A DNA stretch of 64,000 bases. It comes from an uncultured Dysosmobacter sp. (GTDB lineage Bacteria > Bacillota > Clostridia > Oscillospirales > Oscillospiraceae). Position numbers and translations under genes: made by a program. Below the pieces are notes generated by a model, which saw only the letters and a list, made by a program, of their open reading frames with translations, did not search any database and was not told the origin of the DNA. Of this stretch, positions 11,525-50,643 are shown piece after piece. The stretch is from assembly GCA_934563745.1 (NCBI GenBank), contig CAKTHE010000006.1, positions 1 to 64,000 on the forward strand, given 5' to 3'. How positions within the stretch are numbered: position 1 is the first letter of the stretch; each line of letters opens with the position of its first letter.

Positions 11525-12334
11525 TTATTTCAGCTTCCGGTGCCCGGCCCAGACAAGAGCCCCGAACCCCAGGCCCCCCAGAAGGTTCCCCAGCGTCACG
11601 GGCAGCAGATTATTTACAAGGAACGATCCCCAGCTCAGGGCGGAGCAATCCACCCCCGCGGACGCAGCCAGCTCCGCATACCGGGGCACCGTCAGGGCAA
11701 GCAGCCCCGCCGGCACATAATAAAGATTGGCCACACAGTGCTCAAACCCGGCCAGCACGAAAAAGCACACCGGAATGAAAGCGCCGACGGCCCGGCCGGC
11801 CACATCCTTGGCACACAGCGCGCACATGACGGCCGTGCATACCAGAACGTTGCACAAAATTCCCAGGATCAGCGCAGCCGGAAAGGACAGCGCACATTTG
11901 TTCGCCGCCAGACGAATGGTATAAACCGCCAGAGCCCCGCCGGAGAGATTCAGCTGACCGCCCCAGACGCAGCCGGCAGCCGCAGCCAGCGCCCCGACGG
12001 CATTTCCGGCATACACCAGCACCAGGTTGCGTACCGCCGCTCCCGTCCGGACACGCCGTTCCAGCAGCGGGATCGCCAGCAGGCAGTTTCCCGTAAACAG
12101 CTCTGCCCCGGTCAGGATCACCATGATCAGGCCAAAGGGAAACAGCAAGCCGCAAACGATCTTGATAACGGACGGATTTTCCAGCGCATGGGCCGCCGTA
12201 TTGGTCACGGCACCGCCCATTGCAATGAAAAAGCCGGCCAGAATCGAAAGCACCAGCAGCTTTCCGACACCGGCGGCGCACTTTTTCTCTCCGACACCGC
12301 AGTAGCTTTCCACAAATTCGGCAGGATTCAGCAT
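11525..12334 (-). CDS. Formate/nitrite transporter (FNT) family channel
   Basis: Predicted pentameric membrane channel, 269 residues with about six transmembrane helices. The FNT signature FFVLAGFEHCVANLYYVPAGLL (about 193-214) contains the central pore histidine; the family usually has AGFEHSVAN, so Cys replaces Ser here. The loop LTGAELFTGN (about 73-82) is also conserved. Members carry formate, nitrite or hydrosulfide. With formate ligase nearby and no nitrite metabolism in view, formate (FocA-like) is the best guess. It is transcribed alone between two terminators. Confidence 0.85.
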   Translation of the reverse strand: MLNPAEFVESYCGVGEKKCAAGVGKLLVLSILAGFFIAMGGAVTNTAAHALENPSVIKIVCGLLFPFGLIMVILTGAELFTGNCLLAIPLLERRVRTGAAVRNLVLVYAGNAVGALAAAAGCVWGGQLNLSGGALAVYTIRLAANKCALSFPAALILGILCNVLVCTAVMCALCAKDVAGRAVGAFIPVCFFVLAGFEHCVANLYYVPAGLLALTVPRYAELAASAGVDCSALSWGSFLVNNLLPVTLGNLLGGLGFGALVWAGHRKLK

Positions 12335-12467
12335 AGGTTCCTCGCTCCCTCTTTTATTCAGTCTTGTTCAGTCTAACAGCTCCGGCTGTGGCGGTAAATC
12401 CACAGCTTTCACAAATTTTTCGGGTCCCGGTTCCGGGAATTCTCTGCCGCGCACGGGTCCGGGCAGT

Positions 12468-12500
12468 AAGAAGCCCGGTCCGCCGGGAACCGGGCTTCTT
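12468..12500. terminator. Intrinsic terminator after the DUF1576-type gene
   Basis: 12-bp perfect stem (12468-12479 with 12489-12500) with T runs on either strand. It follows the stop of the minus-strand membrane protein. Confidence 0.85.
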
Positions 12501-12517
12501 TTGTTCGGTTCATTCGC

Positions 12518-14041
12518 TCAGCTTGTATGCTCAGCCGTCTGCGGATCCGGGAGGCTGCCGTCTTCCTGCACAGCCGGAGCTTCCCCCGGCCCCAGTTCAT
12601 CCGTTTCCATCTGGTCCTCCGGACTCACGATCCGCTCCTGCGGCGGATTTTCCCCCGGAGCCTCCCGGTCCGCCTCCATCGGGGCGGCCGAGCGCTTCAT
12701 CGCCGCCATCCGGCGGTGGGTGCGCCACGCCGAGGTATCGATGGGCTTGCTCTCTTCAAACAAGTCGAAATAATCCTCGTTCCGAAGCACCGGGCGGCGG
12801 CGCTTGAGGATCGCCGTCATGGTCGGGTAAAACACGATGGCGATCAACCCGCCGGAAAAACCGTTGTTGTAAAGATTCATGCCGGCCACCGGTCCGCCTG
12901 TCTGCAGCACCAATGCCGAATGGATAAAGCCCGCCAGGATCCCCACCGGCCAGCCGAAGTGACCGGCGATCGGCGCCAGCGTCGTGCCGAACAGGCCGGC
13001 CAGCTGCAAAGAGGGATAATCCGGCGTATGGTGCATTCCGTAAGACCCCAGGGCAACGCCCAGCATGATCGGCGTAATATTCAGGGCGTGCTTTCCGAAG
13101 GCGGAAAAGCCCATTACGGTAAAAATGCCGCCCACGGTAGGTCCGTTCAGGTCGCCGTCGATCAGCAGCACATAGCCCATGGCCAGCAGACCGTTGACAC
13201 CCATATTCACCATCACCGGCCCGGCCCCAAACATACGAAGATAGTCGCTGGGGGCCCGCCCCGTGGTAGACAGCAGCCGCCGGTAGCCGGCCCAGACTGC
13301 CCAGCAGGGCACATTCGTTTCAAAAAAGCCGGCCAGGATTAGCATCAGGCAAAGGACGCTCAGCGCCACAATAAAGCGTTTGTTGTAGCCTGTGGCCCAA
13401 AACAGCACCGAGTCCGGCTGGTCGCCGAAGGCCGTCAGCACCGGCACGATCATCATGGCAAACAGACCGCAGGCGAAGCCCATGTTATAAAGGTTCATGC
13501 CGTTTTGAACCTTATATGTATAAGCCGAGAGTGACGGCAGCACAAAGCCGATCACAATGCCGGTCAACGCCCCCAGCCAAAGACTGGCATGGACGCTGCC
13601 CAGGGCCATATAGCTGACCAGCGGCGCCAGCGAGGTGGACATCAGCGCCACGGAAACGTACTTGGAAAAGGGCTCTTTCTGATACTTGGCGTACAGCCAG
13701 GTCCCCAGGATGATCGGCCAGATGTTGACGATATTCTTGCCGAACAGGGAAAAGCCGGCCATCAGCCCCATTTCCACAATGGTAAATCCGTTATACGGAT
13801 CCCCGGAAAAACGGATCAGGCAAATGGAGATGATTGTCACCAGGCCCGCATTGACCAGCGCCGCCCCCACGCCCGCAATGGATACATAGTCCGTGATCAG
13901 AAGGTCCTGCATCGTGACGATCCGGTACAGGCCCGTCGGCACGTTTCCCGGTTCATCCAGCGCAAGCCCCAGCGCCATAAGGATCAAAGAAAATGTGATG
14001 GTCATGGGGAATATTTCGTTATAGCGTTCCTGGGTCTGCAA
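12518..14041 (-). CDS. Polytopic membrane protein, DUF1576-like
   Basis: 507-residue integral membrane protein with about ten hydrophobic segments up to residue 420 and a charged cytoplasmic tail (about 425-507) rich in Pro and Glu. Two related halves are visible: NGMNLYNMGFACGLFA and AGMNLYNNGFSGGLIA, and ...GLMAGFSLFGKNIVNIWPIILG and ...TVMGFSAFGKHALNITPIMLG. This internal duplication suggests a transporter fold. I recall the DUF1576 family as matching, but function is unknown. The start is a TTG with AGGAGG eight bases upstream, and no better codon is near. A leader peptide and terminator precede it. Confidence 0.75.
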   Translation of the reverse strand: MQTQERYNEIFPMTITFSLILMALGLALDEPGNVPTGLYRIVTMQDLLITDYVSIAGVGAALVNAGLVTIISICLIRFSGDPYNGFTIVEMGLMAGFSLFGKNIVNIWPIILGTWLYAKYQKEPFSKYVSVALMSTSLAPLVSYMALGSVHASLWLGALTGIVIGFVLPSLSAYTYKVQNGMNLYNMGFACGLFAMMIVPVLTAFGDQPDSVLFWATGYNKRFIVALSVLCLMLILAGFFETNVPCWAVWAGYRRLLSTTGRAPSDYLRMFGAGPVMVNMGVNGLLAMGYVLLIDGDLNGPTVGGIFTVMGFSAFGKHALNITPIMLGVALGSYGMHHTPDYPSLQLAGLFGTTLAPIAGHFGWPVGILAGFIHSALVLQTGGPVAGMNLYNNGFSGGLIAIVFYPTMTAILKRRRPVLRNEDYFDLFEESKPIDTSAWRTHRRMAAMKRSAAPMEADREAPGENPPQERIVSPEDQMETDELGPGEAPAVQEDGSLPDPQTAEHTS

Positions 14042-14139
14042 GACGTTTCCCTCCTATCAGCAAACCTTTTTCCCTTTGGGCCGTCTCTCCGCTCTTTTCC
14101 CGGTCGGAACGGGCCGGTTTGCGCCGACAATCCCGTAAG

Positions 14140-14232
14140 TTAAAAAAAGGCAAGCCGGCTTCCTCCCGCCGGCTTTTTTCCGGCGTACACAGGCGCAGGC
14201 CGGATCGCTGTCATCAATCTGATTTTTTGCAT
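14140..14232 (-). CDS. Candidate 30-residue leader peptide overlapping an attenuator
   Basis: Short frame from an ATG with AAGGA eight bases upstream, about 15 bases after the predicted transcription start. It is basic and proline-containing; the central IRPAPVYAG resembles the kind of stretch seen in ribosome-arrest peptides. Its last codons (two Phe, then TAA) are encoded by the T run of the terminator, so the frame exactly spans the attenuator. Four GCCGG/CCGGC segments give mutually exclusive hairpins: 1:2 around 14175-14200, 2:3, and 3:4, the terminator. Function as a leader is inferred from this arrangement. Confidence 0.6.
   Translation of the reverse strand: MQKIRLMTAIRPAPVYAGKKPAGGSRLAFF
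14142..14175 (-). terminator. Leader terminator upstream of the DUF1576-like gene
   Basis: On the minus strand AAGCCGGC (14168-14175) pairs with GCCGGCTT (14152-14159) and is followed by GCC and seven T. It lies between promoter and gene, about 100 bases before the TTG start. Confidence 0.78.
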
Positions 14233-14253
14233 AAACAAATCCTTAACAATTTT

Positions 14254-14282
14254 ATCATAACATCTATGAAAACTCCCGTCAA
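14254..14282 (-). promoter_or_regulatory. Sigma-A promoter of the attenuated DUF1576-like gene
   Basis: TTGACG (14277-14282), 17-base spacer, TATGAT (14254-14259) on the minus strand. Start near 14247, leader about 205 bases. Confidence 0.75.
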
Positions 14283-14505
14283 TCGCAATTTTTTTGAATG
14301 ATGTGCACAATCCATCCCACCGGGGCGTTCCCGCCTGCGCTGCCTGCCCGTTCCAAGGTCGACCTCCGGCTCCGGATTTTTCCTGTTTTGCCGCTGCCGC
14401 AGCGGCTGCGGGCTGCAGGGCCACCGAGGCTCCGGCCGTCTCGCGCCTTAAAAGCGCCGTCCGATCCGTCCGTTTTTCTTCAGAAAATTTTTCCGGCAAA
14501 AAAGC

Positions 14506-14535
14506 GGTATATTCCCGTTTCTTCGAGTCAAACTA
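14506..14535 (+). promoter_or_regulatory. Candidate forespore (sigma-G type) promoter of the SASP gene
   Basis: GGTATA (14506-14511) and CAAACTA (14529-14535) with a 17-base spacer resemble the sigma-G pattern (GNATA / CATNNTA). The position, about 60 bases before the ATG, and the product fit. The match is partial. Confidence 0.45.
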
Positions 14536-14595
14536 GCCATGCGATACCCAGAGACCCACAAATTCAAATTCGTTTTATGAAAAGGAGAAACTGTT

Positions 14596-14793
14596 ATGTC
14601 CAGCAAGAATAGTAATAAGCTCAATGTTCCCGAGGCCCGTTCCGCTATGGATAAGTTCAAGATGGAGGCAGCCTCCGAGGTCGGCGTGAACCTGAAGGAA
14701 GGCTACAACGGCGACCTGACCTCCCGCGAGGCCGGCAGCGTCGGCGGCCAGATGGTCAAGAAGATGATTGAGTCTTACGAGAAGAACCTGTAA
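14596..14793 (+). CDS. Small acid-soluble spore protein, alpha/beta type
   Basis: 65-residue DNA-binding protein that coats and protects spore DNA. Both family signatures are present: KFKMEAASEVGVNL (about 20-33), which contains the Gpr protease cleavage region, and LTSREAGSVGGQMVKKMIE (about 41-59). AAAGGAG precedes the ATG by nine bases. The gene has its own likely forespore promoter and a terminator at 14809-14848. It is direct evidence that this lineage makes, or recently made, endospores. Confidence 0.95.
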   Translation: MSSKNSNKLNVPEARSAMDKFKMEAASEVGVNLKEGYNGDLTSREAGSVGGQMVKKMIESYEKNL

Positions 14794-14808
14794 CTTCCGT
14801 TTTCCGTT

Positions 14809-14848
14809 AAAAAGGGCGGGCCCGGATCTTTTCCGGGTCCGCCCCTTT
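14809..14848. terminator. Intrinsic terminator after the SASP gene
   Basis: Nearly perfect stem of about 16 bp with one bulge, A run left and T run right. It serves the converging SASP (+) and decarboxylase (-) genes. Confidence 0.87.
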
Positions 14849-14857
14849 TCTCATTTT

Positions 14858-16210
14858 TCACGGTGTCTCCCGTACGACCTCCACCGAGGGGATCCCATAA
14901 TACCGGAAAATGGCCGCGGCATCCGCGCCGATCACCTCTCCGCTGACCGCCACCGGCACGGCAGGCGGACAGCTGACCGTCGGCACGGCCAGGATCCGAC
15001 CGACCGCCCGGGCGGCCGGAACCGTCTCCCGGGGCGAAAATGCCGCCTCACGGGGCGTGCAGGCCACAGCCGGCGGCCGCAGGCGCAGGCTCTCCCGCAG
15101 AAGCGGCGTTGTCTTTGAGTTGGCCCCCAGGCTCCGCTCGATCCGGGCCAGATCCTCCGCCCGGTTTGCCGGCGTGATCATCAGCACCACGGCATCCGGG
15201 TCTGCATACTCACACTCCACACCGCCGGCGCGCAGCCGCTGCGCCAGCTCCGCCCCGTCCCAGCCGGAGGCCGACGCCGCCAATGTCAGCTTCAAGGGAT
15301 CGCTGGGCTCCACCTGCCAGCCGGCCTCTGCAAGGCGCTGCTTCAGCGCGTCCACCCCGGCCGCGCAGGCGCGCAATGCCCGGGGATAATCCGCTGCCAG
15401 CGACCGGTTCGCAAGATCCAGCGACTGCAGGATCAGATACGATGGGCTGGTCGATCCGAAAAACGCCAGCGCCTCTTTCGCGCGCTGCGCAAAAAGCGCC
15501 GGAGCCCCCTGCCCCACATGCAGATACGCGCCGCCGGTCAGCACCGGAAGCGTCTTATGGGCAGAATCGCAGCACAGATCCGCCCCCAGCTCCATCGGAT
15601 GGCGGCGCTCCGGCAAGAAGCGCAGATAGGCACCGTGGGCGTTATCCACCAGCAGCGGCACCCCGCGGCTGTGGCACAGCTGTGCCAGTGCGCCCAGGTC
15701 CAGCTCTCCGCCCAGATAGTCCGGCGACGTCACATACACCGCGGCCGGAACACGGGGCGCCAGCGCATCCAGGGCCCGCGCAAGCCCTTCCGGCGTGATC
15801 GTGCAGCGGCACAGGGAAAAATCCGCATTCTCCGGCCATAGCCAGCGAACCTCCAGATCCAGCAGCGCCGCAGCCAGGATCATTACCTTATGGGCGTTGC
15901 GTCCCGCCAGAATGAGCGGCCGCGCCACCCCTGCCGCGCGCAGGCGCGCCAGATAGAGCATCGCCCGGATGCACTGTGAGGACCCCTCCGTCGAATAGCA
16001 GGTCCGCTGCGTTCCGAAAAGCGCGGATGCATGCGCCTCGCTGCGGGCAATGATCCCCTCCGCCTCATAAAGTGCGTCCGCCCCGGCCACCTCGGTGATA
16101 TCCAGCGCCTCGCAGCCTAAAACCGGGCGGCCCTTGTGGCCGGGCATATGCAGCCGGGCCATATCCCGCGCGGCATAGGCCTGTACAAAATCGTAAATCG
16201 GCGTATCCAG
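14858..16210 (-). CDS. Orn/Lys/Arg decarboxylase family PLP enzyme, apparent CTG start
   Basis: Fold-type I amino-acid decarboxylase, about 450 residues. The PLP lysine is in CCDSAHKTLPVLTGG, with HMPGHKG near the N-terminus and LVDNAHGAYL as the cofactor aspartate region. The first in-frame ATG (16162) would cut the conserved N-terminus. Sixteen codons further upstream a CTG at 16210 gives the family-like start (LDTPIYDFVQAY), ten bases after AAAGGAGG. A stop codon follows soon upstream, and no ATG, GTG or TTG is available in between. It starts 21 bases after the scfB stop, so it is likely in the same operon. Substrate (Arg, Lys or Orn) is not certain. Confidence 0.85.
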   Translation of the reverse strand: MDTPIYDFVQAYAARDMARLHMPGHKGRPVLGCEALDITEVAGADALYEAEGIIARSEAHASALFGTQRTCYSTEGSSQCIRAMLYLARLRAAGVARPLILAGRNAHKVMILAAALLDLEVRWLWPENADFSLCRCTITPEGLARALDALAPRVPAAVYVTSPDYLGGELDLGALAQLCHSRGVPLLVDNAHGAYLRFLPERRHPMELGADLCCDSAHKTLPVLTGGAYLHVGQGAPALFAQRAKEALAFFGSTSPSYLILQSLDLANRSLAADYPRALRACAAGVDALKQRLAEAGWQVEPSDPLKLTLAASASGWDGAELAQRLRAGGVECEYADPDAVVLMITPANRAEDLARIERSLGANSKTTPLLRESLRLRPPAVACTPREAAFSPRETVPAARAVGRILAVPTVSCPPAVPVAVSGEVIGADAAAIFRYYGIPSVEVVRETP

Positions 16211-16231
16211 ATCCGCCGCGCCTCCTTTCGT

Positions 16232-17617
16232 TTACGCCTGCGCGTCCAGCGAGCGCGCCACCTGCAGCATGATCGCACACTCCATCCGCTTGCGGAAAAG
16301 GGCGCAGCCATACTCATAGACACCCCGGACCGAGCCGGTGGCGTGGTAGGCGTTGGCAGCGCATCCGCCGGAGCAGTACAGCTTTGCCCAGCAGTCCGCA
16401 CACTCCGGACGGGCATAAACGTTGCAGCTGCGGAATTCCTCCTGAACGGCAGGCTGGGTCACGCCGTGCCAGATGTCACCCAGCTTAAAGCGCTCCTCCC
16501 CTACGAACTGATGGCAGGGGTACAGGTCGCCCCAGGGCGTCACGGCCATATATTCCGTTCCCGATCCGCAGCCGGAGATCCGCTTATAAATGCACGGTCC
16601 GCCGGTCAGGTCGATCATATAGTGGTAGAAGGTGATGGGCTTACCGGCCCGCTCCCGCCGGAGCATCTCCTGGGCCAGCAGCTCATATTGCCGCTCCACC
16701 ACCGGAAGATCCTCCTGCGTCAGCGCCGACGGATCCGAGGGGTCGCACACCACCGGCTCCATGCTCAGTTCGGTGAAGCCCAGGTCCGCCATCGTGAAAA
16801 TATCCTCGGTGAAATCCGTATTGGCGTGGGTAAAGGTGCCGCGCATATAATAGTTCTTTCCGCCCCGGGCCTTCACCAGCTTCTGGAACTTCGGAACAAT
16901 CTGCTCCCAACTGCCGCGTCCGGCATAGTCTATCCGGAAACGGTCGTGGACCTCCTTGCGCCCGTCCAGGGACAGCACCACGTTGCTCATCTCCCGGTTG
17001 GCAAAGTCGATCACATCGTCATCGATCAGCATGCCGTTGGTGGTCAGCGTGAAGCGGAAGTTCTTTCTCCGCTCTTTTTCCACACTGCGCGCATACTCCA
17101 CCAGCCGCTTGACCACATCCCAGTTCATCAGCGGCTCTCCGCCGAAAAAGTCCACCTCCAGATTGGTCCGGCTTCCGGAGTGATCCATCAAAAAATCCAG
17201 CGCCTGCTTGCCGACCTCAAAGCTCATGACCGCCCGGTCCCCGTGGTATTTCCCCTGGCTTGCAAAGCAGTAGCTGCAGTTGAGGTTGCAGGTGTGCGCC
17301 ACATGCAGGCACAGTGCCTTGATCACATCACCGCTGCGCTCCTTAAAGGTCCCGGCAAGATCCGCAAAGGTATCCGGCGTAAAAAGCTTGCCCGCATCCT
17401 TCAGGGCCTGCACATCGGCGATGCACTGGCGCACGTCCGCCTCCGTAACGTCCGGCCGGTCCGCGTATTTTTCAAGGAGTTCCGCGACGATCACGTCGGG
17501 GCTGTCCTGTTCAAAGCGCGCAATGACGTCATAGGCCACCTCGTCCACAGCGTGGATGGAGCCGGAGCAGCTGTCCAGCACGATGTTGTATCCGTTGAGT
17601 TGATATTGATGTACCAT
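16232..17617 (-). CDS. scfB: SCIFF peptide maturase, radical SAM/SPASM (thioether-forming)
   Basis: 461-residue enzyme that installs Cys-to-Thr thioether crosslinks in the ScfA peptide. Domains: an N-terminal peptide-recognition domain (1-90, starting VHQYQLNGYNIVLDSCSGSIH), the radical-SAM core with CX3CX2C in HTCNLNCSYCFASQ, and a C-terminal SPASM region with two auxiliary-cluster cysteine sets (GPCIYKRISGCGSG, YPCHQ, and CADCWAKLYCSGGC). The start at 17617 has GAAGGAG eight bases upstream. It lies directly downstream of scfA, separated by a perfect hairpin. The pair is a conserved hallmark of Clostridia; the physiological role of the product is not known. Confidence 0.95.
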   Translation of the reverse strand: MVHQYQLNGYNIVLDSCSGSIHAVDEVAYDVIARFEQDSPDVIVAELLEKYADRPDVTEADVRQCIADVQALKDAGKLFTPDTFADLAGTFKERSGDVIKALCLHVAHTCNLNCSYCFASQGKYHGDRAVMSFEVGKQALDFLMDHSGSRTNLEVDFFGGEPLMNWDVVKRLVEYARSVEKERRKNFRFTLTTNGMLIDDDVIDFANREMSNVVLSLDGRKEVHDRFRIDYAGRGSWEQIVPKFQKLVKARGGKNYYMRGTFTHANTDFTEDIFTMADLGFTELSMEPVVCDPSDPSALTQEDLPVVERQYELLAQEMLRRERAGKPITFYHYMIDLTGGPCIYKRISGCGSGTEYMAVTPWGDLYPCHQFVGEERFKLGDIWHGVTQPAVQEEFRSCNVYARPECADCWAKLYCSGGCAANAYHATGSVRGVYEYGCALFRKRMECAIMLQVARSLDAQA

Positions 17618-17673
17618 CTTTTGTGGCTCCTTCTCGGTAAAGATCGGCGGCGCCGCAGCCGCCGCAGGCTGCA

Positions 17674-17719
17674 GGCCGATAAAAAATGCCGCCGGAAGCG
17701 GCGGCATTTTTTATCGGCC
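17674..17719. terminator. Perfect 20-bp inverted repeat between scfA and scfB
   Basis: Arms 17674-17693 and 17700-17719 match perfectly, with a six-base loop. The stem contains an A6/T6 block, so its U run is inside the stem when read on the minus strand. It starts five bases after the scfA stop and probably acts as a partial terminator or stabiliser, giving more peptide than maturase. Confidence 0.8.
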
Positions 17720-17724
17720 GGTGT

Positions 17725-17871
17725 TTACTTGCCGGCGTTCTCGCACTTCTGGTTGGCCACGCCGCAGCTGGTCTTGCAGGCAGACTGGCAGGAGGTCTGG
17801 CACTCGCCGCAGCCGCCGTTCTTCGCGCTCTCGCACAGGTCACGGGTCACAAGCGTTTTAATTCTTTCCAT
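17725..17871 (-). CDS. scfA: SCIFF ranthipeptide precursor ScfA
   Basis: 48-residue ribosomal peptide. The C-terminal half holds the hallmark CGECQTSCQSACKTSCGVANQKC, six cysteines interleaved with Thr/Ser acceptors for thioether crosslinks. A seventh cysteine sits in the leader-side segment (Cys13, RDLCESAKNGGC), which I do not remember as part of the usual SCIFF pattern. AGGAG precedes the ATG by eight bases. The gene starts the operon scfA-scfB-decarboxylase, with a promoter reaching into the end of the preceding GTPase gene. It is modified by ScfB in the cytoplasm. Confidence 0.95.
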   Translation of the reverse strand: MERIKTLVTRDLCESAKNGGCGECQTSCQSACKTSCGVANQKCENAGK

Positions 17872-17949
17872 AACATATTCTCCTATCATGTTCAGCAGGA
17901 ATTTGAGTGGCATCCCGCCGCACAGCGGACGCCCATTCATAGCATTTCA

Positions 17950-17978
17950 ACGATACCACAAGGTCCTGACAAAGTCAA
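17950..17978 (-). promoter_or_regulatory. Putative promoter of scfA
   Basis: TTGACT (17973-17978), 17-base spacer, TATCGT (17950-17955) on the minus strand. The -35 overlaps the last codon of the GTPase gene. Confidence 0.5.
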
Positions 17979-20653
17979 GGCTGCCTTGCTTCTTCCGGCG
18001 GCTCCTCCGGCTGCTCCTTCTGCTGCGCCCGCTCCATGGCCCGGCGCACCGCCTGGGACCGGCCCTGCCGGTTGTTCCGGCGCAGCGTCTGGGTGATTTG
18101 CTCCTGCACGGCCAGCACCTCTTCCCGGAAGGAGGAGGCCGGGACCCGCAGGGCTCCGTGCCCCAGAATGATCAGCTGCTCCGCTCCGTCCGAGGTCGCC
18201 ACCCGCACCCGGTGCCGGGGCCCGATCTCATAGGTCGTCTTTTCAATATAGGCGTCCGCCGTCTCCGCCTCCTTGGTGTAGACCACATAAATGTTATGAT
18301 AGCGGAACACGCTGCGCTCCTGATTTGGCATTTTGTAGGCGTCAAACACCAGGATCAGCTCACAGCCCCGCACACCCTGATAGTTGCTCAAAAGATCCAT
18401 CAGGCGCTTCCGGGCCGCGTCCAGATTTTCCCGGGCCACAGACTTCAGCTCGTCCCAGGCAAAAATCATATTGTAGCCATCCACCAGCAGATAATCCTTT
18501 CCCTGGGGTACGGCCGGCTTCGGCCGGGAGGCTTCCTGCGGCGGCGCTTCCCTGCGGGGCGTAAAGCCCCGGCGGGTAATGGGGCCGTAGGTTCGCTCAA
18601 AGATCTGCCGCAGCTGCGCATCCTCCTCCAAAGAGCCGCTCTTCCCCCGCGCCTCCGGCCGCCGGGGCGGCGGGACCGAGGCCGGCTCCTCCGGCCCGGC
18701 TTCCCCCAGACGCAGTCCGCTGCTGACATGGGCCCGGGCCGGGACCTGGTCCCAGGGAACCTGCACCCCTGCGCCATGCTCACAAAAGACGGAGCCCGGC
18801 GGATTATCCGGATCCCGCTCCGGGTCATACCCCGCCCGGGCCAGTACCGCCTCTTCGTCGTGGCACAGTTCGTAGCCCCGCAGCGTGCAGACCATGCGTC
18901 CCCGGCCCCGGGTATAAGCCCGAACCTCCGCGGCATAGCTGCGCAGCTCCGACACCGGTGCCGCACCGCGCACCACCGTCTCCTCCGCTCCCGTCTCCGG
19001 CGGCTCCGTGCGGCCGCCCATGCGGGAAAGATCGGAAAGGGCCCGGCCCACGCACTCCGGCGGAAGCTCCAGCCGGAAATCATACCAGGGCTCCAGCAGG
19101 CGGCACTGCGCCTGCATCAGCCCCTGCCGCACAGCCCGGTAAGTGGCCTGGCGGAAATCTCCGCCTTCCGTATGCTTCACATGCGCCCGGCCGGCCACCA
19201 GGGTGATCTTCACGTCCGTCAGCGGCGCGCCCAGCAGAACGCCCGGATGCTCCCGCTCTGTCAAATGGGTCAGGATCAGCCGCTGCCAGTTCCGGTCCAG
19301 CTGATCCTCCGGGCAGGCGGAGGCAAGCTGCACGCCGCTGCCCCGCTCGCCCGGCTCCAGCAGCAGATGCACCTCCGCATAATGGCGCAGCGGCTCAAAG
19401 TGCCCGATACCCTCCGCCGGCCGCGTCAGCGTCTCCCGGTACACAATGCTTCCCTCTCCGAACGAGACCTCCAGACCGAAGCGCTCCCGGATCAGCCGCC
19501 CCAGCACCTCCAGCTGTACTTCACCCATCAGCTGCACATGGATCTCCTGTGCCCGTTCGTTCCAGCGCAGATGCAGCTGCGGATCCTCCTCTTCCAGTAC
19601 CCGCAGCTTTTCCAGGGCCGTATGGGGATCCACCCCCTCCGGCAGCTCCACCCGGTAGCTGAGCACCGCCGCCAGCTCCGGCGCACCGCCGCCGGGATCC
19701 GCGCCCAGGCCCTGCCCGGGATACGTCCCGGCCAGCCCCGTCACCGCGCAGACCGTCCCCGCAGGCACTTCCTCCTCCGTTCGGAAGCGCGCGCCGGAAT
19801 ACAGGCGGATCTGGTCTGCCTTTTCGCTCCGGGCCGGATCCTCCCCGGGCCGGGCCGTATGGAGCTGAGCCTTCACGCGCAGGCTGCCGCCCGTAATTTT
19901 CAGATAAGTCAGCCGGTTCCCCTGTGCGTCCCGTCCGATCTTATACACCCGGGCACCGAAGGCGTCCGGCCACGCCGGACGGGGGCCGAACCGGTCCAGC
20001 CCATCCAGCAGCGCTTCCACACCCTCCAGCTTCAGGGCCGAGCCAAAATAGCAGGGAAACAGCCTGCGGGCGGACGTCAGCCGCCGCAACGCTTCATCCT
20101 GCACCCGCCCCTGCTCCAGATACGCAGAAAGCAGCGTCTCGTCACACAGCGCCGCCTCTTCCCATAGCGTCTCCTCCGCCCCGGAGGCATCCACGCAGGC
20201 GCTGTCCAGCTTCTCCTGCAGCTCCCGCAGCAGGGCGGACCGATCCGCCCCGGGCAAGTCCATCTTGTTGATAAACAGAAAAGTCGGGATCCCCCAATGC
20301 TTCAGAAGCCGCCACAGGGTCCGGGTGTGGCCCTGTACCCCGTCGCTTCCGCTGATCACCAGGATCGCCGCATCCAGCACCTGAAGCGGGCGCTCCATCT
20401 CCGCTGAAAAATCCACATGCCCCGGCGTGTCCATCAGCTGGATCTCCGCATCCTTCCATGTCATCCGCGCCTGCTTGGAAAAGATGGTGATCCCCCGCTC
20501 CCGTTCCAGGGCCTCCGTATCCAAAAATGCATCCTGATGGTCCACACGGCCCAGGCGCCGCAAGGCGCCGCTGCAGTAAAGCAGCGCTTCCGACAGCGTG
20601 GTTTTTCCCGCGTCCACGTGGGCCAGGATCCCGATGCAAATCCGTCTCATCAT
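17975..20653 (-). CDS. EF-G/TetM-like ribosomal GTPase fused to a YacP/Rae1 NYN nuclease domain
   Basis: 892-residue cytoplasmic protein. Residues 1-650 are a translational GTPase of the ribosome-protection type: G1 AHVDAGKTT (10-18), G2 RERGITI, G3 DTPGHVDF, G4 NKMD, then domains II-V. A Pro/Arg-rich linker (about 650-715) leads to a NYN/YacP domain (719-850) with DGYN (725-728), LILVFDAY, TADAYIEK and VATSDGAEQ, which supply acidic residues for metal-dependent RNA cleavage. The tail is charged. YacP (Rae1) of Bacillus cuts mRNA in the ribosomal A site, so fusion to a ribosome-binding GTPase is functionally coherent. GGAGGAG precedes two tandem ATG codons. Tetracycline resistance should not be assumed. 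Confidence 0.88.
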   Translation of the reverse strand: MMRRICIGILAHVDAGKTTLSEALLYCSGALRRLGRVDHQDAFLDTEALERERGITIFSKQARMTWKDAEIQLMDTPGHVDFSAEMERPLQVLDAAILVISGSDGVQGHTRTLWRLLKHWGIPTFLFINKMDLPGADRSALLRELQEKLDSACVDASGAEETLWEEAALCDETLLSAYLEQGRVQDEALRRLTSARRLFPCYFGSALKLEGVEALLDGLDRFGPRPAWPDAFGARVYKIGRDAQGNRLTYLKITGGSLRVKAQLHTARPGEDPARSEKADQIRLYSGARFRTEEEVPAGTVCAVTGLAGTYPGQGLGADPGGGAPELAAVLSYRVELPEGVDPHTALEKLRVLEEEDPQLHLRWNERAQEIHVQLMGEVQLEVLGRLIRERFGLEVSFGEGSIVYRETLTRPAEGIGHFEPLRHYAEVHLLLEPGERGSGVQLASACPEDQLDRNWQRLILTHLTEREHPGVLLGAPLTDVKITLVAGRAHVKHTEGGDFRQATYRAVRQGLMQAQCRLLEPWYDFRLELPPECVGRALSDLSRMGGRTEPPETGAEETVVRGAAPVSELRSYAAEVRAYTRGRGRMVCTLRGYELCHDEEAVLARAGYDPERDPDNPPGSVFCEHGAGVQVPWDQVPARAHVSSGLRLGEAGPEEPASVPPPRRPEARGKSGSLEEDAQLRQIFERTYGPITRRGFTPRREAPPQEASRPKPAVPQGKDYLLVDGYNMIFAWDELKSVARENLDAARKRLMDLLSNYQGVRGCELILVFDAYKMPNQERSVFRYHNIYVVYTKEAETADAYIEKTTYEIGPRHRVRVATSDGAEQLIILGHGALRVPASSFREEVLAVQEQITQTLRRNNRQGRSQAVRRAMERAQQKEQPEEPPEEARQP

Positions 20654-50473: not shown

Positions 50474-50643
50474 CGGCAAGCTCCCCCCGCAGGGAAGCCC
50501 GCAGTTCCTTTTTTCCAAACGGAAGGCAGCCCCGTTTCCGCGGCAGCCCCGGGAGCGGTCTCCCGCTCCGGCGCAGCGTCCTGCCCGTTCCGGGTTTAGA
50601 CGCTTTTGCTCAAAGAACCTTTTTCATTCAATTTTTCCCGGCC

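Follow-up and report, generated by a model that had tools for sequence, protein, structure and literature searches.

A transcription attenuator specific to one lineage may lie in the 5' untranslated region (5' UTR) of a DUF1576 gene of an uncultured Dysosmobacter sp. According to this reading, which we favour tentatively, a ribosome located at about codon 16 or later of a 30-codon leader frame would mask the intrinsic terminator that the frame itself traverses. The window, that is, the whole stretch of DNA analysed, comprises 64,000 nucleotides (assembly GCA_934563745.1, contig CAKTHE010000006.1, positions 1 to 64,000), and the leader is read on its minus strand. The order and spacing of its parts, from the promoter and ribosome site through the frame and hairpin to the gene, are workable, and the attenuator stands as a single-genome candidate. 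If real, a leader-frame attenuator acting on the DUF1576 family would offer a first handle on the timing of that protein's production, and it would be a switch confined to a single lineage, many of whose relatives seem to make do with a simple, short 5' UTR.

Architecture of the leader region

The elements located at 14042-14282, together with the gene downstream, are the following.

14254-14282, minus strand: candidate promoter TTGACG-17-TATGAT with a TG before the -10 (scan, 10/12 matches); -35 TTGACG at 14282-14277, 17-base spacer, -10 TATGAT at 14259-14254
14240-14244, minus strand: Shine-Dalgarno-like word AAGGA, separated from the leader ATG by 7 bases (from the sequence)
14230-14232, minus strand: leader ATG, read 14232-14230 (from the sequence)
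14140-14232, minus strand: 30-codon leader frame and TAA stop, passing through the terminator (from the sequence; no homologue found)
14179-14204, minus strand: hairpin 1:2, in the anti-antiterminator position (-13.5 kcal/mol, folded alone)
14167-14185, minus strand: hairpin 2:3, in the antiterminator position (-11.7 kcal/mol, folded alone)
14152-14175, minus strand: hairpin 3:4, the terminator (-16.2 kcal/mol, folded alone)
14142-14148, minus strand: T7 run of the terminator, 3 bases past the full stem and 5 past the GC core
14152-14179, plus strand: the same hairpin, GC core followed immediately by T6 (14174-14179)
14050-14055, minus strand: AGGAGG, ribosome site of DUF1576 (from the sequence)
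12518-14041, minus strand: DUF1576 membrane protein, TTG start at 14041, 507 aa (PF07613)

The original prediction had described the promoter, the AAGGA word, an ATG within about 15 bases and the 30-codon frame, and all of them were found at the minus-strand places it gave. The terminator T run was likewise present as described, encoding the last two Phe codons and meeting the stop, since T7 (14148-14142) supplies Phe-Phe and the T of the TAA at 14142-14140. The leader peptide, MQKIRLMTAIRPAPVYAGKKPAGGSRLAFF, contains no residue run beyond KK, GG and FF, and the last of these is dictated by the T run. On the minus strand the terminator hairpin (14175-14152) is AAGCCGGC-GGGAGGAA-GCCGGCTT. Judged from the promoter position, transcription would start at about 14247, leaving about 15 RNA bases ahead of the leader ATG, and the leader ribosome site is predicted to lie only about 3 bases from the 5' end of the RNA.

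In the 300 bases next to DUF1576 there is one sigma-70-type match, the leader promoter 212 bases upstream, and the promoter scan found no promoter-like hexamer pair between 14142 and the DUF1576 start. Hence, if the attenuator reading is correct, DUF1576 transcripts must cross the hairpin. In a comparison of the region 13950-14600 with Rfam no family reached its curated cut-off, the best weak matches remaining far below it. An imperfect 15-base direct repeat (80%) is present at 14279-14293, over the -35, and at 14214-14228, over the early leader codons.

The DUF1576 gene and its surroundings

The gene downstream, for which a DUF1576-like product with its own AGGAGG/TTG start had been proposed, is a true member of the family (PF07613, E 1.2e-101, 338.1 bits against a curated cut-off of 25). 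Arg6-Tyr7 is nearly invariant across 31 aligned sequences, and many relatives carry TTG, GTG or ATG just ahead of the Arg-Tyr pair, in agreement with the TTG start. In a structure model of the protein, the Amt/Rh, urea transporter and RnfD folds scored above the next fold, and the product may be channel-like, resembling the Amt/urea-channel fold; comparison of its sequence with solved structures gave no match beyond one chance hit (E 0.39). None of the literature searched mentions DUF1576. The relatives' records bear the names Oscillibacter, Dysosmobacter, Flavonifractor and kin, and among the 14 largest clusters of frames neighbouring DUF1576 in relatives nothing decisive stood out.

Several features of the window are worth recording in their own right. 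A formate/nitrite channel gene adjoins DUF1576 at 11525-12334. About 110 bases at 14482-14595 (plus strand), upstream of the spore-protein (SASP) gene, match together with that gene in many genus genomes (about 77-86% DNA identity); they are probably a sporulation promoter region. Three genes stand in a row at 14858-17940 (minus strand): one for a SCIFF peptide (PF13165), next to it one for a radical SAM/SPASM protein that would be the maturase of the peptide, and one for an Orn/Lys/Arg decarboxylase; DNA matches across the latter two genes occur in many family genomes. The frame at 17975-20653 (minus strand) encodes an 892-aa fusion of an EF-G/TetM-like GTPase with a C-terminal YacP-like NYN domain (PF00009, EFG III/IV/C, PF05991). 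YacP is Rae1, a nuclease of the ribosomal A site, so the product would unite a ribosome GTPase with an mRNA nuclease in one protein; among the papers listed by a literature search none was evidently about such a fusion. A Moco riboswitch (RF01055, 58.3 bits) at 50491-50627 (minus strand) precedes genes of molybdenum-cofactor type at 50518-47062, recognised by eye.

RNA folding and ribosome position

The effect of a leader ribosome was modelled by equilibrium folding with about 15 bases hidden beyond the P-site codon. Without a ribosome the terminator's GC core had a probability of 0.96. With the P site at codons 1-15 the terminator probability was at least 0.76, its minimum falling at codons 10-11, where 2:3 reached 0.24; from codon 16 on, with the left arm covered by the ribosome, it was at most 0.04. 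Lys-Ile-Arg at leader codons 3-5 fits R/K-X-R/K, given as a macrolide stall motif in the cited section of PMC6851288, and a stall with codon 4 in the P site left the terminator at 1.00 in the model.

The pairing 2:3, weaker than 3:4 by 4.5 kcal/mol, beat it at no modelled ribosome position, and on this ground classical 1:2/2:3/3:4 switching was rejected as the main mechanism. Before segment 4 is made, 2:3 belongs to the best structure with or without a ribosome and beats 1:2. Because it does so even when no ribosome is present, 1:2 is no effective switch arm in the model, and because 2:3 forms early regardless of the ribosome, the pairing set does not act there as a clean switch on ribosome position. 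A kinetic role of a transient 2:3, depending little on ribosome location, is possible. In the model the more robust effect is that a ribosome within the leader masks the hairpin directly. The claim that the leader can form the pairings 1:2, 2:3 and 3:4 is borne out, all three being able to fold, and the accompanying phrase 'as in classical attenuators' is not, given that the frame overlaps the terminator.

From these elements the following course of events may be proposed. RNA polymerase would start at about 14247. When no ribosome is close, 3:4 would fold and transcription would stop in T7 (14148-14142), yielding an RNA of about 105 bases. A leader ribosome that follows closely, or that pauses once its P site has reached about codon 16 or beyond, would instead cover the left arm of the hairpin, in the manner of pyrBI, and with that arm covered polymerase would read through into DUF1576. 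For this scheme we infer that promoter, terminator and leader start all function, and that control is exerted by translation and not by another factor; the signal could be a stalling compound, but equally the general translation state or coupling. What the leader represents is plausibly a single-lineage 5' UTR terminator with a frame running through it, instead of a classical attenuator with a stalling peptide. The more specific notion of a recent attenuator in which the distance at which the ribosome follows the polymerase, and not a particular stalling peptide, gates a channel-like protein of an Oscillospiraceae bacterium, so that the leader would serve a member of the Firmicutes as a natural sensor of how transcription and translation are coupled, is distinctly unlikely.

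Chance expectation

The promoter alone is at chance level (1 found against 1.3 expected in a 5-kb scan) and the folding of the whole leader is unremarkable (z -0.95). The leader reading frame is already open from a TTG at 14499 onward, for 119 codons in all, and its openness is therefore no evidence for a leader. The sequence 14247-14176 (72 bases) was subjected to 5000 dinucleotide shuffles with the hairpin retained. An ATG with a Shine-Dalgarno-like word leading into the terminator arose in 15 shuffles and, for 5-base segments, the pairing set of 1:2 and 2:3 in 54; frame and pairing set together arose in 0 of the 5000, a rarity that the shuffle may overstate because it mixes the AT-rich 5' part with the GC-rich 3' part. 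When 6-base segments were used as coded, 8/5000 shuffles passed and the real leader failed, because one 2:3 pair sits outside the stem. If the ribosome site is not required, some ATG frame into the terminator was obtained in 998/5000 shuffles. Among the 165 terminators of 120 related loci and the window, 3 had the frame, 17 the pairing set and a single one, this leader, had both.

Codon use places the leader frame between gene and non-gene: each of the 318 in-frame pieces taken from six window genes scored higher (mean 0.355) than its 0.00, which still exceeds 99.5% of the out-of-frame pieces. The leader combination modestly beats chance, and what is unusual is the combination, not the promoter or the folding.

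Conservation in relatives

The search for the leader covered 80 DUF1576 loci (the best of 520), 86 genomes of a related genus and a sample of 400 family genomes taken out of a larger group. The best 80 loci are at most 79% identical to the window DUF1576 (best segment), and the comparison extends to relatives beyond the species, the closest of which diverge by more than 20% in this gene. The original prediction had pointed to the leader frame upstream of homologues as its check, and the outcome was negative: the peptide was present in 0/80 of these DUF1576 loci up to 450 bases upstream, and it was recognised at none of the places inspected in the genus or family genomes. The whole loci of the 80 contained no leader, the sole other motif match, MAAIRP (L053), lying about 1 kb from the gene and not continuing.

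Some part of the window 13200-15000 was matched by 81/86 genus genomes; the leader (14141-14281) was covered by none of the matches listed, with up to 3 candidates scored per genome. The leader protein query gave E <= 1 in 32 of the 86 (best 0.0068), and none of the 15 loci inspected, of 46 listed genus matches, was leader-like by eye. In the 400 family genomes 12 reached E <= 0.05 (best 0.003), and the 11 new loci inspected all lay inside longer stop-to-stop frames of 252-865 codons. The pattern MTAIRPA matched 7 family genomes (reversed control 1) and 1/10 of a 10-genome set; the 7 family places, all inspected, did not continue as a leader, nor did the match in the 10-genome set. A looser pattern found 9 stretches in viral contigs, none continuing as the leader peptide, and a 40-residue leader stretch gave no candidate in the protein database. 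A leader peptide conserved in the relatives examined was consequently rejected, the protein, pattern and database searches having returned only unrelated or chance-level matches.

A search reaching 800 bases upstream (a shorter distance in L041 and L043) found a terminator hairpin in 6/80 DUF1576 loci; in two of the 80 (L049, L051) it lay within 213 bases of the gene, in both upstream of a recognisable -10. A promoter-like match within 300 bases occurred in 36/80 loci, the same scan giving none in the other 44; 29 of the 36 lay no more than 80 bases from the matched start (median 43, against 212 in the window), so most of these loci have a short 5' UTR. Promoter homology with relatives was considered and rejected, ATTGTTAA after the -10 being common to only 3 of the 55 loci compared out of the 80 (L006, L009, L045), which is too little. 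A mobile or repeated insert was likewise rejected: no second leader copy was found in the window. Plasmid matches numbered 39 records at E <= 10. A Pusillibacter faecalis plasmid was the one significant match (E 4e-8) among the 20 listed, and it covers the spore-protein upstream region only. Phage matches numbered 18 records, the best with E 0.2. The proposal that the leader governs DUF1576 keeps in its favour the sole promoter-like match near that gene, a fair ribosome site and the overlapping hairpins, and lacks conservation in the relatives examined.

Alternative explanations

The hairpin could be a 5' UTR terminator that acts without any leader peptide, either as a fixed partial terminator or under the control of a protein, a small RNA or a ligand, the frame being a by-product of the GC-rich hairpin region. 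Such a terminator, which we consider rather unlikely, would account for a peptide that is an orphan in the searches made and for a frame that is open over its 119 codons anyway, without gene-like codon use, and which the shuffles readily supply once the ribosome site is waived; yet an ATG equipped with a ribosome site was rare in the same shuffles, and no known RNA family fits. A step further lies the possibility that there is no functional attenuator at all: DUF1576 adjoins the spore-protein gene in this lineage, hairpin and frame in the DNA upstream of it would be fortuitous, and the true promoter would perhaps be unrecognised and nearer to the gene. The chance-level promoter score and the folding z are in keeping with it, as is the finding that DUF1576 and spore-protein matches stood side by side in 0/86 genus genomes, among the matches listed. 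The rarity of the leader combination, in the shuffles and among the 165 terminators, and the empty promoter scan between 14142 and DUF1576 argue against it, and it appears quite improbable.

The strand on which the hairpin acts also has to be weighed. The gap between GC core and T run is 0 on the plus strand and 5 on the minus strand, and of 177 such hairpins 112 had a gap of 0 and 13 a gap of at least 5; on this measure the hairpin suits the termination of plus-strand transcripts at least as well as that of minus-strand ones. It might then be a bidirectional insulator between the divergent DUF1576 (minus) and spore-protein (plus) genes, serving mainly to stop plus-strand antisense transcription toward the spore-protein promoter, with DUF1576 expressed by read-through. 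The spore-protein upstream region, conserved in many relatives, might need such shielding. However, no credible plus-strand gene was found just to the left of the hairpin: the genes recognised at 11525-14041 run along the minus strand, and the frame 13589-14143 of the plus strand lies antisense to a conserved gene. An insulator role is hence possible but without a known need, and we regard it as unlikely.

Comparison with known attenuators

The candidate attenuator shares features with several described systems and is identical to none of them. In ANTAR-type antitermination the hairpin loops show an A1/G4 pattern; this type was rejected, the 1:2 loop being without the pattern when judged by eye. 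In trp-type attenuators the leader peptide repeats codons for the regulated amino acid. The leader described here has the same order of 1:2, 2:3 and 3:4 pairings, but it contains no single-amino-acid run and its 2:3 pairing is weaker than 3:4. The cited section of PMC4824070 places the terminators of amino-acid attenuators at a distance of more than 20 bp past the leader gene, whereas here the terminator lies inside the frame, the TAA (14142-14140) overlapping the T run.

Leader attenuators are described as established in Bacillus and Clostridioides in the cited parts of PMC9226507, PMC6851288 and PMC10201436. Those of vmlR, tlrB (yxjB) and cplR, in Bacillus and Clostridioides difficile, also consist, as outlined there, of a promoter, a short leader frame and a terminator, and vmlR also has an anti-antiterminator, antiterminator and terminator in that order. 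Their leaders, so far as those parts describe them, have 3 to 9 codons (MRI, MIN, MIIQFIRYR), in contrast to the 30-codon orphan frame found here, and they control ABCF or rRNA methylation genes and not a channel-like gene. The tlrB leader and hairpins are said in the same material to be conserved among Bacillus species, whereas the present leader recurs in none of the 80 DUF1576 loci.

A U-rich region in which polymerase pauses precedes the hairpin in pyrBI-type attenuators; unlike in pyrBI, the RNA from the leader start codon to the hairpin is here free of U runs, UUUGUUU standing only before the ATG. The pyrBI frame has 135 bp against 93 bp here, and pyrBI has a pyrimidine gene downstream while the present leader has none. 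The cited portion of PMC4824070 describes terminators within the first 100 bp as harder to suppress, because ribosomes rarely catch the polymerase there without a pause. It also reports that a stop codon moved to 5 bp before the terminator reduced termination from about 90% to less than 10%. The pyrBI terminator of Escherichia coli lies within its leader gene (pyrL), and a ribosome near or over an intrinsic terminator suppresses termination, as stated in the portions cited of PMC4824070 and PMC5021804; likewise, the present frame (14232-14140) spans the stem 14175-14152 and the T run. As far as these sources go, a frame that runs through its terminator, in pyrBI as here, means that a close ribosome can prevent the hairpin from forming.
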